From Parafrankia elaeagni (GTDB taxonomy: Bacteria > Actinomycetota > Actinomycetes > Frankiales > Frankiaceae): 64,000 nucleotides of DNA. The stretch's first letter is position 1. Each line of letters begins with the position of its first letter. Below the pieces are notes generated by a model, which worked only from the letters and a program-made list of their open reading frames with translations, was not told the origin of the DNA and did not search any database. Below are positions 51,429 to 60,527 of this stretch, piece after piece. The position numbers were made by a program, and so were the translations under genes. The stretch lies in assembly GCF_000374165.1 (NCBI RefSeq), contig NZ_KB893772.1, positions 124,001 to 188,000 on the forward strand. The letters are read 5' to 3'.

Positions 51429-54625
<3,197 letters not shown>

Positions 54626-54629
<4 letters not shown>

Positions 54630-56119
54630 GCGAGCAGACCGATGCCGCGACCACGCCCACCCGGCCGCCCGGCGCGAACCCGTCGGCGCACCGGGCCTCG
54701 CACCCGACCGACCGGGCCGCGTATCCGCCCGGCCGGGCCGCCGAACCGCCCCCCGTGCCACCCGCCGGGCAGCCCGCCGGGCAGCCCGCCGCGCTCCCGG
54801 GTACCGCGGGTGTCACGCCCGCGCAGCGCGGGCCCGCGGTCTCGACATGGTCGTTCGAAACCCGCCAGATCCACGCCGGCACGCAGCCCGATCCGACGAC
54901 CGGGGCGCGCGCCGTCCCGATCTACCAGAGCGCCTCGTTCGTCTTCGCCGACGCCGAGCAGGCCGCCGGCCTGTTCGCCCTGACCGAGACCGGCTTCACC
55001 TACACCCGGGTCGTGAACCCGACCCAGGACGCACTCGAACAGCGCATCGCCGACCTGGAAGGCGGCGTCGCCGCGCTCGCGACCGCCAGCGGGCAGGCCG
55101 CGCAGACCCTGGCCCTGCTCAACATCGCCTCGGCCGGCGACCACCTCGTCTCGTCCGCCTCGCTGTACGGCGGCACCTACGCCCTGTTCCGCCACACCTT
55201 CGCCGACCTCGGCATCGAGACGACGTTCGTCGACGACCCCGACGACCTGGACGCCTGGCGGGCGGCGGTGCGCCCGAACACCGCCGCGTTCTACGGGGAG
55301 ACGATCGGCAACCCGCGCGGCAACGTCCTGGACATCGCCGGGATCGCCGCGGTCGGCCACGACGCCGGCATCCCGCTCGTCGTCGACAACACGCTCCCCT
55401 CGCCCTACCTCACCCGCCCGCTGGAGCACGGGGCCGACATCGTCGTGCACTCGGCCACGAAGTTCATCGGCGGGCACGGGACGTCCATCGGCGGTGTGAT
55501 CGTCGACGGCGGCCGGTTCGACTGGGGCAACGGCCGCTACCCCCGCTTCACCCAGCCCGACCCGTCCTACGACGGCCTGGTGTTCCTCGACGTGTTCCCG
55601 GAGACCGCGTACATCCTGCGCGCCCGCGCGCGGCTGCTGCGTGACCTGGGCCCGGCGCTGTCGCCGATGAACGCGTTCCTGCTGCTGCAAGGCCTGGAGA
55701 CACTGTCGCTACGGATGGAGCGGCACTGCGCCAATGCGCTGCGCGTCGCGACCTGGCTGCGGGGCCACGAGGAGGTCACCCGCGTCGCCTACCCCGGCCT
55801 GCCCGACAGCCCCTGGCGGGACGCCGCGGCACGGTACCTGCCACGGGGGGCGGGCGCGGTGGTCGCCTTCGGGCTGCGCGACGGCGAGCGCCGCGGCCCG
55901 GCCTTCATCGAGGCGCTGCGCCTGCACAGCCACCTGGCGAACATCGGGGACGTCCGCTCGCTCGCGATCCACCCCGCGTCGACGACCCACGCCCAGCTCA
56001 CCGAGGCCGAACGGGCCGCCAGCGGCGTCCCCGCCGACCTGATCCGGCTCTCCGTGGGCCTCGAGGGCGTCGAGGACATCCTCACCGACCTCGACACCGC
56101 GTTCCGCGCGACCCACTGA
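54626..56119 (+). CDS. Second O-acetylhomoserine sulfhydrylase-like PLP enzyme
   Basis: This 497-residue paralogue of MetY begins with a 70-residue Pro/Ala-rich extension, then the same fold: [40 protein letters not shown], the PLP lysine in [20 protein letters not shown] and [20 protein letters not shown]. It differs in regions near the active site such as NNTL context VDNTLPSPYLTRPLE. It may be redundant with metY or use another acyl-homoserine or sulfur donor. The GTG at 54626 overlaps the stop of the oxygenase remnant; a later start at the conserved domain is possible. Confidence 0.9.
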
Positions 56120-56543
56120 CCCCGCCTGACGGGCCTCACCCTGCAGACTTCCTCGGCCGGACCACCACCTGAACGCAGGATGCACCGCGCGAGATCGCTG
56201 CCCCGGTATGCGGGGACAGCTCGCGCTGTGGCCACGGCCGGGCGGAACAGTGGTCCGGGTTCGTCGACGCCGGTTTCGCATTTCGCAGGACCGCGATGGA
56301 TACCATCCCGCTCGGCGAGACGGCGGCCAAGGCAGATGGTGGCAGATCGCACTACGGCTGGATCACGAGGGCAGTTCCGTTCTCAGTGCTGCCCTTTAGG
56401 GCCGTACAACAACGGTCCGAGCGTGACCATAACCCGTGAGGCATGCTGTCGACACTGCTACAGTGCGGAACGGGTGTCCGGGAGAAACGGGCGTCATCTC
56501 AGTATGCTCTGGTGGTCGGTTTCCATGTGGGAGGCGGCGGCGG
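56120..56543. other. Gene-free spacer upstream of the helicase-nuclease gene
   Basis: No gene is supported in these 424 bases. The part after 56300 is less GC-rich than the housekeeping genes and probably carries the promoter of the large helicase gene; GGGAGG lies just before its GTG. Confidence 0.4.
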
Positions 56544-59500
56544 GTGGGGTGGCGTGAAGAGATCGTCGCAGCCCTCGGCGAATGGATTACGGCCGAGGGA
56601 GGCGCGGGAAAGCCCGCGCGCTGGCGCCGCCTTGGCAGGGCGGCCCGCACCGGCGGGCCCGGTACCTACGCGCTGGACCTACGCGGCTCCGATATCGGAC
56701 CCGACCAGCTCGACGCGCTGAAGCTCGCCGGCCCTGAACCTGACTCCCTACGAACGACCGGGTTCGCCGTTTCCGAGGTCACGCAGAACGGCTCGCTGCT
56801 CACGCTGAAGGTCGCCGAGTTCGCCGACATCAGCGACCCGTACCTCTGGATGTTGAAGCAACCGCCGACGTTCCTTGTCGAGGCTCTGCGCGACGGGCTT
56901 CAGGGGCTGGGCGAGGCGGCTCTGGCGTCCGCGCTGGCCGCCGGATCGATCGGTGGCGAGGCTTCACCGGTGTCTGCTCCGGCGGGTTTCCACCCGGCGC
57001 AGGGGGACGCCTACCGAGCATGTCTCGGCACGGGTGTGCGGCTGGTGTGGGGACCGCCGGGCACCGGCAAGACGACCGTCCTCAGCCGTGCCATCTGTGA
57101 TCTCATCAGCAGGGGTGACCGGGTGCTGCTGGTCTCCGCCACCAACATCGCCGTGGACAACGCCTTGCTGGGCGTGGTCAGGCAGAACCGGCACGCTTCC
57201 GGCGACATCGTTCGGGTCGGACCACCGCAGCTGAAGGAGATCGCCGACGACCCCACGGTTTCTCTCCCGCTCATCGTGCGGGAACGCCTCACCGAGACCA
57301 CCGGGCGCAGCAACAGAATCGAACGTGAACTGGTGGCGATACGCGACCGTGCCGTGGAACTCGCCGCGCTGGGTGCAAGGGCTGTCGGCTTCGACCCCCC
57401 GGCCTACTTCGCGGCGCTGAAGCTGCTGCGCACCCCCGGGTTCGACGTCGCCTCCGCCAACACCCGGTCGGATGACGCGGGTTCCCTGCTGGTCGCCGCG
57501 ATACAGACGCTGGTGCGGGCTGAAGAAGTTCTGGTCAAGGCTCGTCGGGGCGTCACGGCCGTGGAATCCTCGCGCCGGCAGTGGGACGAGGTCGACGAAC
57601 TGCGCTTGGAGCAGTCCCAATTGCTGGACGCGGCCGGCAGGAGAGACGCCGCGGTGCTACTGAGCACCGACCGCTGTCATCGACTCCGAACCGCACTGGA
57701 GGAACTCGAGAACCAGCGCGGCATCGCCCGATGGCGCGCGAAGGATCGCAGGGAACAACTCGTGCAGGACCTGCGTGAGGCCGAAGAGCAGGCCAGCCGA
57801 GACAAAGATGATGCCGCAAGCGCTCGCGTCACCGCGCAAACCCGCCACAGCGCTCTCGAGCAACAGGTACGCGGTCTCATCGCTCGCATCCCACAAACCC
57901 GCGAACAGATCGGCACACGCCACGCGGAACTCCGCGCGGCGCAGGCGGCCCACCAGAGCGCCGAGCACCAGGTCCGTCGCCTGCGGCGTGAGGCAGACGA
58001 ACGCGAACAGGAGGCGCGGCGAGCCCGGGATGCGCACGCCCTGACCACACATGCCGAGCGGCGGGGCTGGCCGAGCTGCCACGCCGAGATCGAACGCCTG
58101 CAGCCACAAGCTGCCACGGACGCCCGACGGCGGCCCGAACTCGAGAAGCAGTTCGAACAGGTTCAGGAGGAGCACGAGCGACTTGTCCGCAACGCCCAGA
58201 AAGAGATCATCGGCTCCGCCAGACTCGTCGCGACCACTCTCGCCAGGTTCCGGACCAACAAGGCTGTCTTCGAGGGCCCCTACGATGTCGTGCTCGTCGA
58301 CGAAGCAGGAGCGGCGACACTGCCCGAGGTTCTGCTCGCCACCGCGAAGGCTGGCCGCGCCGCAGTGCTACTCGGCGACTTCATGCAGCTCGGGCCGGTC
58401 ATCCCGCCTGCGCTCAAGGATCTCAAGAGGCCAGACGTCGAACGGTGGCTGCTGCCAGACATCTTCCAGCACTGCGCGATCCGTGACCCGGAGGATGCGA
58501 GACGGCATCCGGGCTGCGTGTCTTTGGTCGAACAGCATCGGTTCGGCCCGACGGTCATGCGGCTCGCCAACGAACTGGCCTACGGCGGATCGCTCCAGCA
58601 CGGACGTCGGGCTCCGGCGCCACGACCGGCCGATGACCCGGAGATCGTCCTCATCGACACCGACGGCCTGCACGAACTTGCACACGTCCACCTCACAGGC
58701 CGCAGAAAGGGATGGTGGGCAGCGGGCTCGCTGATCTCCCGCGCGCTGGTCGAGCTGCACCACGAGGGAGGTGAGGAGACAGGTGTCGTCACTCCATACG
58801 GTGTGCAGGCCGAAGCCACCCTCGAGGCCCTCCGAGATGTCGAGGTGACCGGCCGCCCGCTGGCCGAGGTCGGTACGACTCACCGCTTCCAGGGGCGGGA
58901 GTTCCCCATCGTCATCTTCGACACGGTGGAGGGCGCGGGCAGCCGCGAGCTGTGGATGGCCCGAGCTCGAATGGGAACGGACGAATGGGAACGTGAGGGC
59001 GCCCGGCTCTTCAACGTCGCAGTCACCCGAGTCCAGACTCGTCTCTACATCATCGGCAGTGAGGAACGTATTACCGAGGCGAAGCGCGGGACAGCCTTCG
59101 CGTACCTGGCCGCGATGATCGGCACGGCTGGCGTACGGCGCCTCCAGGCGAAGCAGCTGATCACCCCGCCGAGCGGAGTCCCCGCTGCCCTCGGTCAGTT
59201 CGGTTCCACCCTTGCCGACGTGCTCAGCCGGCATGTGGAGGTCACGGACGTCGACGACGAGCATGCCTTCTTCACCACCTTCGAGGACCAGATCCGCGGC
59301 GCCCGCGCCTCGTTGTGGCTGTGGGCACCGTGGGTCGCGAAACGTATCCGCGGCATCCTTCCCCTCCTGGAGGACGCCGCACGGCGTGGAGTCCGGGTTA
59401 CGGTCTTCATCCGTGACAACTCCGACCAGGTGCAGCGCACCGAAGTGAGTCAGGATCTCATCGCGGATCTGCGAGCCGTGGTGCACACGGTTGTTCCGAT

Positions 59501-59831
59501 CAACGTGATGCACCAGAAGGTCGTGGTGATCGACGAACGGACCGTGATGCTCGGCAGTCTCAACGCGCTCTCGCAGAGCTGGACTCGGGAAGTGATGCTG
59601 ACGATGAGTGGCGCGCACTTCGCTCGCAAACTGCTGGCGCATCTGAACGCCGAGGATTTTGCGCGGCCACCCCCGTGTGGCAGGTGCGGCGGCACAAGTA
59701 TAGAAGTCAGGCGCCGCAGCAACGGCATCTGGTTCTGGCGTTGCTACGACACCGTCTGTAAGACGGACCACAAAGGCAGAAGCAACGCCTGGAACCAGAA
59801 CATTCGACTGGCCAGCGCCCGTTCGCAGTGA
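56544..59831 (+). CDS. mkoC: SF1 helicase-PLD nuclease fusion, Mokosh type II-like defence protein
   Basis: This protein of about 1,095 residues has an SF1 (COG1112/Upf1-like) helicase: Walker A VWGPPGTGKTTVLSRAI (about residue 169), ATNIAVDNALLGVV, a long coiled-coil insertion (about residues 260-560, Arg/Glu/Gln-rich), Walker B VVLVDEAGAATLPEVL (about 585), LGDFMQLGPVIPP, VEQHRFGPTVMRLANELAYG and TTHRFQGREFPIVIFDTV. The C-terminal third has a phospholipase-D-type nuclease motif HQKVVVIDE followed by GSLNALSQ (about 989), then a zinc ribbon (CGRCGG and CYDTVC). A single protein with this helicase-PLD order is the described design of type II Mokosh anti-phage defence. GTG 56544 has GGGAGG upstream. 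Codon use looks less GC-extreme than its neighbours, which suggests transfer. Confidence 0.85.
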   Translation: MGWREEIVAALGEWITAEGGAGKPARWRRLGRAARTGGPGTYALDLRGSDIGPDQLDALKLAGPEPDSLRTTGFAVSEVTQNGSLLTLKVAEFADISDPYLWMLKQPPTFLVEALRDGLQGLGEAALASALAAGSIGGEASPVSAPAGFHPAQGDAYRACLGTGVRLVWGPPGTGKTTVLSRAICDLISRGDRVLLVSATNIAVDNALLGVVRQNRHASGDIVRVGPPQLKEIADDPTVSLPLIVRERLTETTGRSNRIERELVAIRDRAVELAALGARAVGFDPPAYFAALKLLRTPGFDVASANTRSDDAGSLLVAAIQTLVRAEEVLVKARRGVTAVESSRRQWDEVDELRLEQSQLLDAAGRRDAAVLLSTDRCHRLRTALEELENQRGIARWRAKDRREQLVQDLREAEEQASRDKDDAASARVTAQTRHSALEQQVRGLIARIPQTREQIGTRHAELRAAQAAHQSAEHQVRRLRREADEREQEARRARDAHALTTHAERRGWPSCHAEIERLQPQAATDARRRPELEKQFEQVQEEHERLVRNAQKEIIGSARLVATTLARFRTNKAVFEGPYDVVLVDEAGAATLPEVLLATAKAGRAAVLLGDFMQLGPVIPPALKDLKRPDVERWLLPDIFQHCAIRDPEDARRHPGCVSLVEQHRFGPTVMRLANELAYGGSLQHGRRAPAPRPADDPEIVLIDTDGLHELAHVHLTGRRKGWWAAGSLISRALVELHHEGGEETGVVTPYGVQAEATLEALRDVEVTGRPLAEVGTTHRFQGREFPIVIFDTVEGAGSRELWMARARMGTDEWEREGARLFNVAVTRVQTRLYIIGSEERITEAKRGTAFAYLAAMIGTAGVRRLQAKQLITPPSGVPAALGQFGSTLADVLSRHVEVTDVDDEHAFFTTFEDQIRGARASLWLWAPWVAKRIRGILPLLEDAARRGVRVTVFIRDNSDQVQRTEVSQDLIADLRAVVHTVVPINVMHQKVVVIDERTVMLGSLNALSQSWTREVMLTMSGAHFARKLLAHLNAEDFARPPPCGRCGGTSIEVRRRSNGIWFWRCYDTVCKTDHKGRSNAWNQNIRLASARSQ

Positions 59832-59906
59832 GCGGCCGGTTTTCCCTCCGGGATACCAGCGCTGTCGGTGACGAGGAGGACGGAACAGGGGGCCGCAGAG
59901 GCGGAC

Positions 59907-60527
59907 TCAGGCCACTGCCTCCTCGCCGACCAGGGTGGTGCGGTGCATCAGGCGGTGGGACTCGGCCGTGTAGGGCTGGGCCCGGTGCAGGATGCCGGTG
60001 TTGTCCCAGATGACCAGGTCGCCGTGGTGCCAGTGGTGCCGCAGCGAGAAGCGGGGCTGGGTCGCCCAGACGAGCAGGCGGTCGAGCAGCTCTCGGCTCT
60101 CGGCCTCCGACAGGCCGACGACCCGTTCCGCGGTGGCACCGACCAGCAGCGACCTGCGGCCATTGCCGCGGGTCCACACCAGTGGATGCTCCCGGGACGG
60201 GACCTTGTCCCACGATGCCCGCATCCTCGGCGAGGCGTCGGGGTGCGCCAGTCGTTGCGTCGCGGCAAAGCTGTGCACCACACGAAGTTCGGCGTACCGC
60301 GCCTTCTCCTCGTCGGACAGCCCTTCGTAGGCCGCGTAGAGGTTGGCGAACTCGGTATCGCCGCCCTCGGTCGCGACCTCCAGCGCGGTCAGCAGGGTCG
60401 CCTTCTGCGGGACGAGGTCGTTGGCGCCGTCGATGTGCCAGAAGAACGTGCCCGACCGGTAGGCGGCCAGCGCGCTCTGCGCCGGATCGAGAGAGATCGA
60501 GGAGACCTCGATCGCGCTGGTGCACCG
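59907..60527 (-). pseudogene. 5'-truncated TauD-type Fe(II)/2-oxoglutarate dioxygenase
   Basis: About 200 C-terminal residues of a TauD/TfdA-family dioxygenase are encoded, with the first metal motif FFWHIDGAND (HxD), LLTALEVATEGGDTEFANLY, and the final histidine in WDNTGILHRAQPYTAESHRL with LMHRTTLVG. The 70-90 N-terminal residues are missing: the frame hits a stop (TTA on plus, 60528-60530) immediately upstream of the homologous part. A GTG at 60279-60281 would give only a 124-residue product without the HxD motif. It abuts head to head with a truncated aldo/keto reductase, so both seem to have been cut in one event. Confidence 0.8.

Follow-up and report, generated by a model that had tools for sequence, protein, structure and literature searches.

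Within a stretch of 64,000 nucleotides of Parafrankia elaeagni (contig NZ_KB893772.1, positions 124,001 to 188,000; hereafter the window) lies an open reading frame (ORF) whose single product unites a UPF1-like superfamily 1 (SF1) helicase, a coiled-coil insertion and a phospholipase D (PLD) nuclease. A preliminary description of this DNA had matched the gene to type II Mokosh anti-phage defence. From the comparisons reported here we think it reasonably probable that the gene encodes an acquired, probably autonomous anti-phage helicase-nuclease of a family distinct from the type II Mokosh protein, MkoC, and that it may serve as a plug-in gene of some defence islands. The gene and its parts are as follows, in window coordinates.

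56530..56534, forward strand: possible ribosome-binding site GGAGG, read from the sequence, 9 nucleotides 5' of the GTG start
56544..59831, forward strand: helicase-nuclease gene, an ORF of 1095 residues (SF1 UPF1-like helicase, coiled-coil, PLD nuclease)
56544..56993, forward strand: N-terminal beta-rich domain, residues 1-150, with strands between residues 26 and 105 in the AlphaFold model
57051..57074, forward strand: Walker A motif GPPGTGKT, residues 170-177, invariant in a 6-row alignment
57264..58217, forward strand: helical coiled-coil insertion, residues 241-558, from composition and the AlphaFold model
58296..58310, forward strand: motif II, VDEAG, residues 585-589, with DEA at 586
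59286..59645, forward strand: PLDc_2 nuclease domain, residues 915-1034 (Pfam 44.2 bits, cut-off 27)
59511..59573, forward strand: single HKD motif HQKVVVID...GSLN, residues 990-1010, by motif reading
59676..59759, forward strand: C-terminal Cys4 pattern CxxC...CxxxxC, residues 1045-1072, complete in 4 of 6 alignment rows, the window protein included

The start of the 1095-residue protein, Met/Val-Gly-Trp-Arg-Glu-Glu, is shared by its close homologues. Pfam places AAA_11 at residues 153-620, AAA_12 at 658-840 and PLDc_2 at 915-1034, all above their curated cut-offs, and has no match in residues 1-150. This order, together with UPF1-like SF1 motifs, bears out the one-protein helicase-PLD layout of the preliminary description, and it is the layout of type II Mokosh, which parts of PMC10740426 define as one protein with an N-terminal helicase and a C-terminal PLD nuclease. 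The coiled-coil insertion of about 300 residues likewise stands: residues 250-545 are 60% A, E, R, Q or L and 6% P or G, and AlphaFold predicts long helices at residues 241-279, 302-389, 399-448, 453-506 and 509-558, the block having a predicted local distance difference test (pLDDT) score mostly of 77-87. Helicase motifs III, V and VI lie at residues 611, 777 and 824.

In the PLD motif, H990, K992, D997, G1004, S1005 and N1007 are invariant in all six alignment rows, among them the window protein, and each row carries the signature of the PLD (HKD) superfamily, HxK(x)4D...GSxN. The Streptomyces otsuchiensis copy (L004 3896-7189) has an in-frame stop and was for that reason excluded from the alignments. 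The zinc ribbon of the preliminary description is present as a pattern of four cysteines at residues 1045-1072, to which Pfam matches nothing in the window protein; the cysteine pattern is what suggests a ribbon. In profile searches of the PDB the nearest solved relatives of the helicase part are Nam7/UPF1 (3.8e-24), Dna2 and Sen1, and those of the PLD part are Nuc (1BYR), NucT and mitochondrial cardiolipin hydrolase. A structure search with the AlphaFold model has Setx, Upf1, Ighmbp2, Sen1 and Dna2 among its best PDB matches, with low TM-scores.

The gene occupies an inserted segment between two genes that lie next to each other in the nearest congener:

54626..56119, forward strand: metY-like gene, left flank, with no PADLOC match
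56124..59900, no strand assigned: inserted segment, a one-gene cassette from metY to the 3' end of tauD, ends approximate
59907..60281, reverse strand: truncated tauD-like gene, right flank (TauD 95.5 bits), a 298-residue ORF in G001

The nearest congener, G001, is 97% identical over the metY query, and its 298-residue tauD ORF is convergent with metY. Between the stop codons of metY and tauD there are 3787 nucleotides in the window (56120-59906) as against 17 in G001 (L022 1588-1604). The base-by-base comparison of the site covers G001; in G002 another gene comes after metY. A single gene-like ORF, the helicase-nuclease, is carried by the inserted segment. By a DNA search with metY the locus is present in all 7 genomes of the genus, and the helicase-nuclease protein was found (E up to 1e-20) in the window's own genome and in none of the six congeners, which is not the pattern of a housekeeping helicase present in all relatives. 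The unusual base composition noted earlier is also confirmed, for at 0.669 the insert has a lower guanine plus cytosine (GC) content than any other 3.3-kb segment, the mean for the window being 0.733; at third codon positions it is 0.786 in the helicase-nuclease gene versus 0.958 in metY. The window copy is far closer to Streptomyces copies than to those of its own family, which indicates transfer. Sequence comparison thus supports horizontal acquisition of the gene as a one-gene insertion at a site where the nearest congener has no insert, as the preliminary description had supposed. The ends of the insert show no convincing terminal or target-site repeats from which a mobile element could be identified, and scans for promoter and terminator consensus sequences gave no match.

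Decayed genes beside the insert had been taken as a further sign of acquisition. They are present, but their decay is a second event, separate from the insertion: a deletion at about 60497, of some 0.58 kb by comparison with G001, has fused what is left of tauD to a shortened aldo/keto reductase gene. On the other side, the window holds two divergent metY-like genes (52634-56119) whose DNA is 76% identical over the query, and five of the six congeners have a second metY copy close by on the same contig. The ORF that comes after metY in G002 (L025 1651-4170) is by eye of the TIR/SEFIR type with a receptor-like part, and a protein kinase gene (L025 4373-6007) adjoins it.

The gene is sparsely distributed. 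Among 36 genomes of the family, five match at 1e-40, namely the window's own, G021, G031, G032 and G013; the copies in G021, G031 and G032 are nearly full length with 36-40% identity, and G013 was rejected as a homologue, its match being 174 residues inside the coiled-coil region. The class sample, in which at most six candidates per genome were scored, gave matches in 2 of 118 genomes, both from the window's own family. The nearest full-length relatives found are from Streptomyces, at 62-68% identity; a scan for related loci returned three Streptomyces loci at 63-67%. In the genus of S. echinatus (G146), which was taken as Streptomyces, 13 of 150 genomes match at 1e-60, G146 itself counted and at most five candidates scored per genome. 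Nine of these 13 copies are nearly full length (five with 62-68%, two with 51-52% and two with 38-39% identity) and four matched in pieces. The copies in G243, G282 and G236 (L057/L063, L058/L062 and L059/L061) are broken into two adjoining pieces, and decay of homologues seems to be frequent. No match was found in phage records; viral contigs, searched with the alignment, gave three weak matches to the helicase part only, and plasmid records, searched with the whole protein, gave one match, to residues 526-850 only.

Several homologues lie among defence genes. The S. echinatus copy (67% identity; L003, contig G146:C10) sits within a locus of the phage growth limitation (Pgl)/type 2 bacteriophage exclusion (BREX-2) type, flanked by pglY and, in the other direction, by an ORF, a helix-turn-helix (HTH)/DUF5753 gene and then pglX. 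PADLOC scores for this locus are 843 bits for PglZ, 1327 for PglY, 1700 for PglX, 1487 for PglW, 694 for BrxD and 1060 for BrxHI, and Wadjet jetA, jetC and jetD adjoin it. In G280 (64%) PglW (1566 bits) follows 178 nucleotides downstream on the same strand and PglY is 12.4 kb off. The S. otsuchiensis copy (63%) has PglY (1280 bits) as its divergent neighbour and a HEC-07-like gene (58.7 bits) as its convergent one. A more distant copy in G193 (38%; L069 1340-7800) is followed by TerY (346 bits), after which come genes that by eye are PP2C-like, kinase-like and HTH-containing. Under a model of uniform placement, two copies within 15 kb of PglY among the five genomes that have both genes would arise with a chance of about 1e-4; the model takes no account of the tendency of defence genes to cluster, and so it supports membership of islands and not partnership. 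As some close relatives lie in Streptomyces phage-defence islands, the protein is probably a phage-defence enzyme. The anti-phage role claimed in the preliminary description is thus supported by the context of some homologues and not by the window copy's own setting.

A number of results weigh against this interpretation. Neither of the two flanking window genes tested has a PADLOC match, nor do the TetR-type neighbour in L002, the flank ORFs of G031 and G032 (8 ORFs) or those of G182, G238, G154 and G263 (7 ORFs), flank ORFs having been chosen by hand, mainly by length. PglY lies elsewhere in the genome in G000, G147, G154 and G236, and in 11 of the 18 genomes that carry the helicase-nuclease gene no PglY is matched at 1e-60. 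PglY is present in 5 of 13 gene-positive Streptomyces-group genomes, G146 counted, versus 4 of 20 gene-negative ones, the latter being the first gene-negative genomes of the listing and not a random draw (Fisher p 0.43, no enrichment). The AlphaFold model, built from an input alignment of six rows only, is confident in the N-terminal half only and of low quality in helicase domain 2 and the PLD domain, with a mean pLDDT of 64.6 and a predicted template modelling score of 0.41.

G276 is in short contigs in which linkage between the gene and PglY is not readable. A pooled PADLOC scan of 42 further ORFs gave MTase_I, STK_OB, Orf5, HEC-06 and other matches, one member each, which are not assignable and were not used. 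On another contig of the window's own genome (G000:C75:25054-28914) there is a BrxC/PglY gene (1502 bits), so this genome may also have a Pgl/BREX-2 locus.

We consider it unlikely that the protein is a divergent subtype of type II Mokosh whose helicase-PLD fusion descends from the same ancestor as that of MkoC, and membership of type II Mokosh is not supported. The domain order is the same, and on the full-length MkoC profile of PADLOC (PDLC03924) the window protein scores 122.2 bits, in a partial alignment (profile positions 771-1111 of 1136) that reaches into the PLD domain. Three plasmid proteins found by tblastn and used as type II references, L035, L036 and L037, score 1229.6, 1203.1 and 1413.7 bits over the full length of this profile, about an order of magnitude more, and are 18-21% identical to the window protein. 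Four homologues of the window protein score 105.5-119.9 bits, also partially. The best PADLOC match of the window protein is in fact MkoA (160.2 bits, helicase part), with MkoC second; L038, a helicase without an HKD motif, scores 101.1 bits on MkoC and 190.7 on MkoA, and since a protein that lacks the PLD domain scores similarly, both matches are largely generic. The PLD domains of the window protein and MkoC align with an hhalign probability of 97.6, a value obtained without an unrelated PLD family as control and hence no evidence for common descent; PLD domains in general may align this well. In a tree of the helicase core (12 rows, 390 columns) MkoC joins L042, which is again a helicase lacking the HKD motif, at 92/88 and apart from the new family, and forcing the window family and MkoC together is rejected by the approximately unbiased test (p 0.00499; 0.000438 after realignment). 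The verdict of the tree is provisional, because there are three long branches, the program flags the join of L042 and MkoC as a possible long-branch effect, and as a clade the new family is not well supported (36/52). L010, the second helicase-like gene of the genome, is in the 13-row alignment and was left out of the tree because it has no Walker A motif in the stretch compared. The zinc ribbon and the actinobacterial setting had been proposed as possible marks of a distinct subtype; the Cys4 pattern is not constant among homologues, and type II Mokosh has already been recorded in Micrococcus luteus by a genome survey (in parts of PMC10740426).

The positions of L003, L004 and G280 within or beside Pgl/BREX-2 genes raise the question of whether the protein serves type 2 BREX/Pgl as an accessory effector and is not an independent system. 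We regard this as very unlikely: the window copy stands alone, the G193 copy adjoins TerY instead, the PglY survey above places that gene elsewhere or finds none in most of these genomes, and the helicase-nuclease is not regularly co-encoded with Pgl/BREX-2 genes. The setting in G193, with its TerY, PP2C-like and kinase-like neighbours, is also what might be expected of a partner-dependent helicase like CnuH of the CoCoNuT or TerY-P associated systems to which a PLD effector has become fused. According to parts of PMC11090510, CnuH is UPF1-like, has a coiled-coil insertion after Walker A and is coupled to a nuclease, with a PLD in type III-C, and the window protein is likewise a UPF1-like helicase with a coiled-coil insertion at this place. 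The inserted segment, however, brought no partner gene, and we hold this to be the least probable of the alternatives. No McrBC-type CnuB/CnuC is present in the inserted segment or was seen among homologue neighbours, which were screened with PADLOC only, without a dedicated CnuB/CnuC search. A role outside defence, in RNA surveillance or DNA repair, would agree with UPF1, Sen1, Dna2 and SMUBP2 being the nearest solved relatives, but we see little likelihood in it given the absence of the gene from all six congeners, its presence in just 2 of the 118 class-sample genomes, both from the window's own family, and the defence-island neighbours of some homologues.

We tentatively suggest, with slightly less than even confidence, that the acquired helicase-nuclease represents a single-protein defence family without a name, in which a UPF1-like coiled-coil helicase gained its PLD domain independently of MkoC and which joins Pgl/BREX-2 and TerY-type islands and also moves alone as a one-gene cassette. 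In the window protein the UPF1-like motor would bind single-stranded RNA or DNA, such as phage transcripts, R-loops or replication intermediates, and translocate with ATP; the coiled-coil insertion might dimerise or gate the C-terminal PLD domain, and a paired PLD site would then cut the bound nucleic acid. In Nuc-type enzymes two chains pair to build one active site, and since the protein has one HKD motif per chain, two chains would have to pair in the same way. For CoCoNuT, parts of PMC11090510 propose that UPF1-like coiled-coil helicases are coupled to nucleases in a similar way.

Among the titles and abstract openings listed for UPF1-like or COG1112 helicases with phospholipase D, and for Mokosh together with Streptomyces and BREX, none describes the family, and an earlier description elsewhere is possible. 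The main text of a BREX survey (PMC12839542) contains the terms UPF1 and Mokosh 0 times, and parts of it place HKD nucleases on BrxL or Type-2 BR helicases. No PADLOC profile listed for the window protein covers its full length, so profile surveys may miss such proteins or mislabel them as Mokosh. If our interpretation is true, the fusion of helicase and PLD has more than one origin in bacterial immunity, which would point to a general design in which a UPF1-like motor, equipped with a coiled-coil arm, passes nucleic acid to a nuclease. The one-gene insertion with its empty site is a minimal testable unit, and the Streptomyces homologues inside Pgl/BREX-2 loci offer a natural experiment on cooperation.

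Among known proteins, UPF1/Nam7, Sen1, Dna2 and SMUBP2 have the helicase core in common with the window protein and act in eukaryotic RNA or DNA metabolism; they are not known to have a PLD domain. DrmC of DISARM shares the PLD domain (32 bits for the window protein in PADLOC) but is a separate protein of a multi-gene system, and no DrmA or DrmB is among the PADLOC matches shown for the neighbours. CnuH of CoCoNuT belongs to multi-gene operons of the McrBC type, whereas the window gene encodes helicase and PLD in one protein and stands alone. Type I Mokosh (MkoA/MkoB) also combines an SF1 helicase with a PLD nuclease, but MkoA has N-terminal parts of kinase and NERD type, and its PLD is a separate protein. 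An MkoA-type gene, L041, scores 1604 bits; by eye it is much like L043, the two being from plasmids of two Rhizobium species, and each overlaps a second gene of 494 residues; reading by eye showed no PLD in these second genes. L041 has transposase genes on both sides. The closest likeness in layout is to MkoC, a single protein with an SF1 helicase, whose first RecA domain has a long insertion separating its motif I and motif II halves, and with one C-terminal HKD/PLD domain; the three MkoC proteins differ in that about 100 additional residues precede Walker A and the Cys4 pattern is absent. The helicase-nuclease of the window probably works like type II Mokosh without being closely akin to it, and its helicase-PLD fusion is perhaps convergent with that of MkoC.

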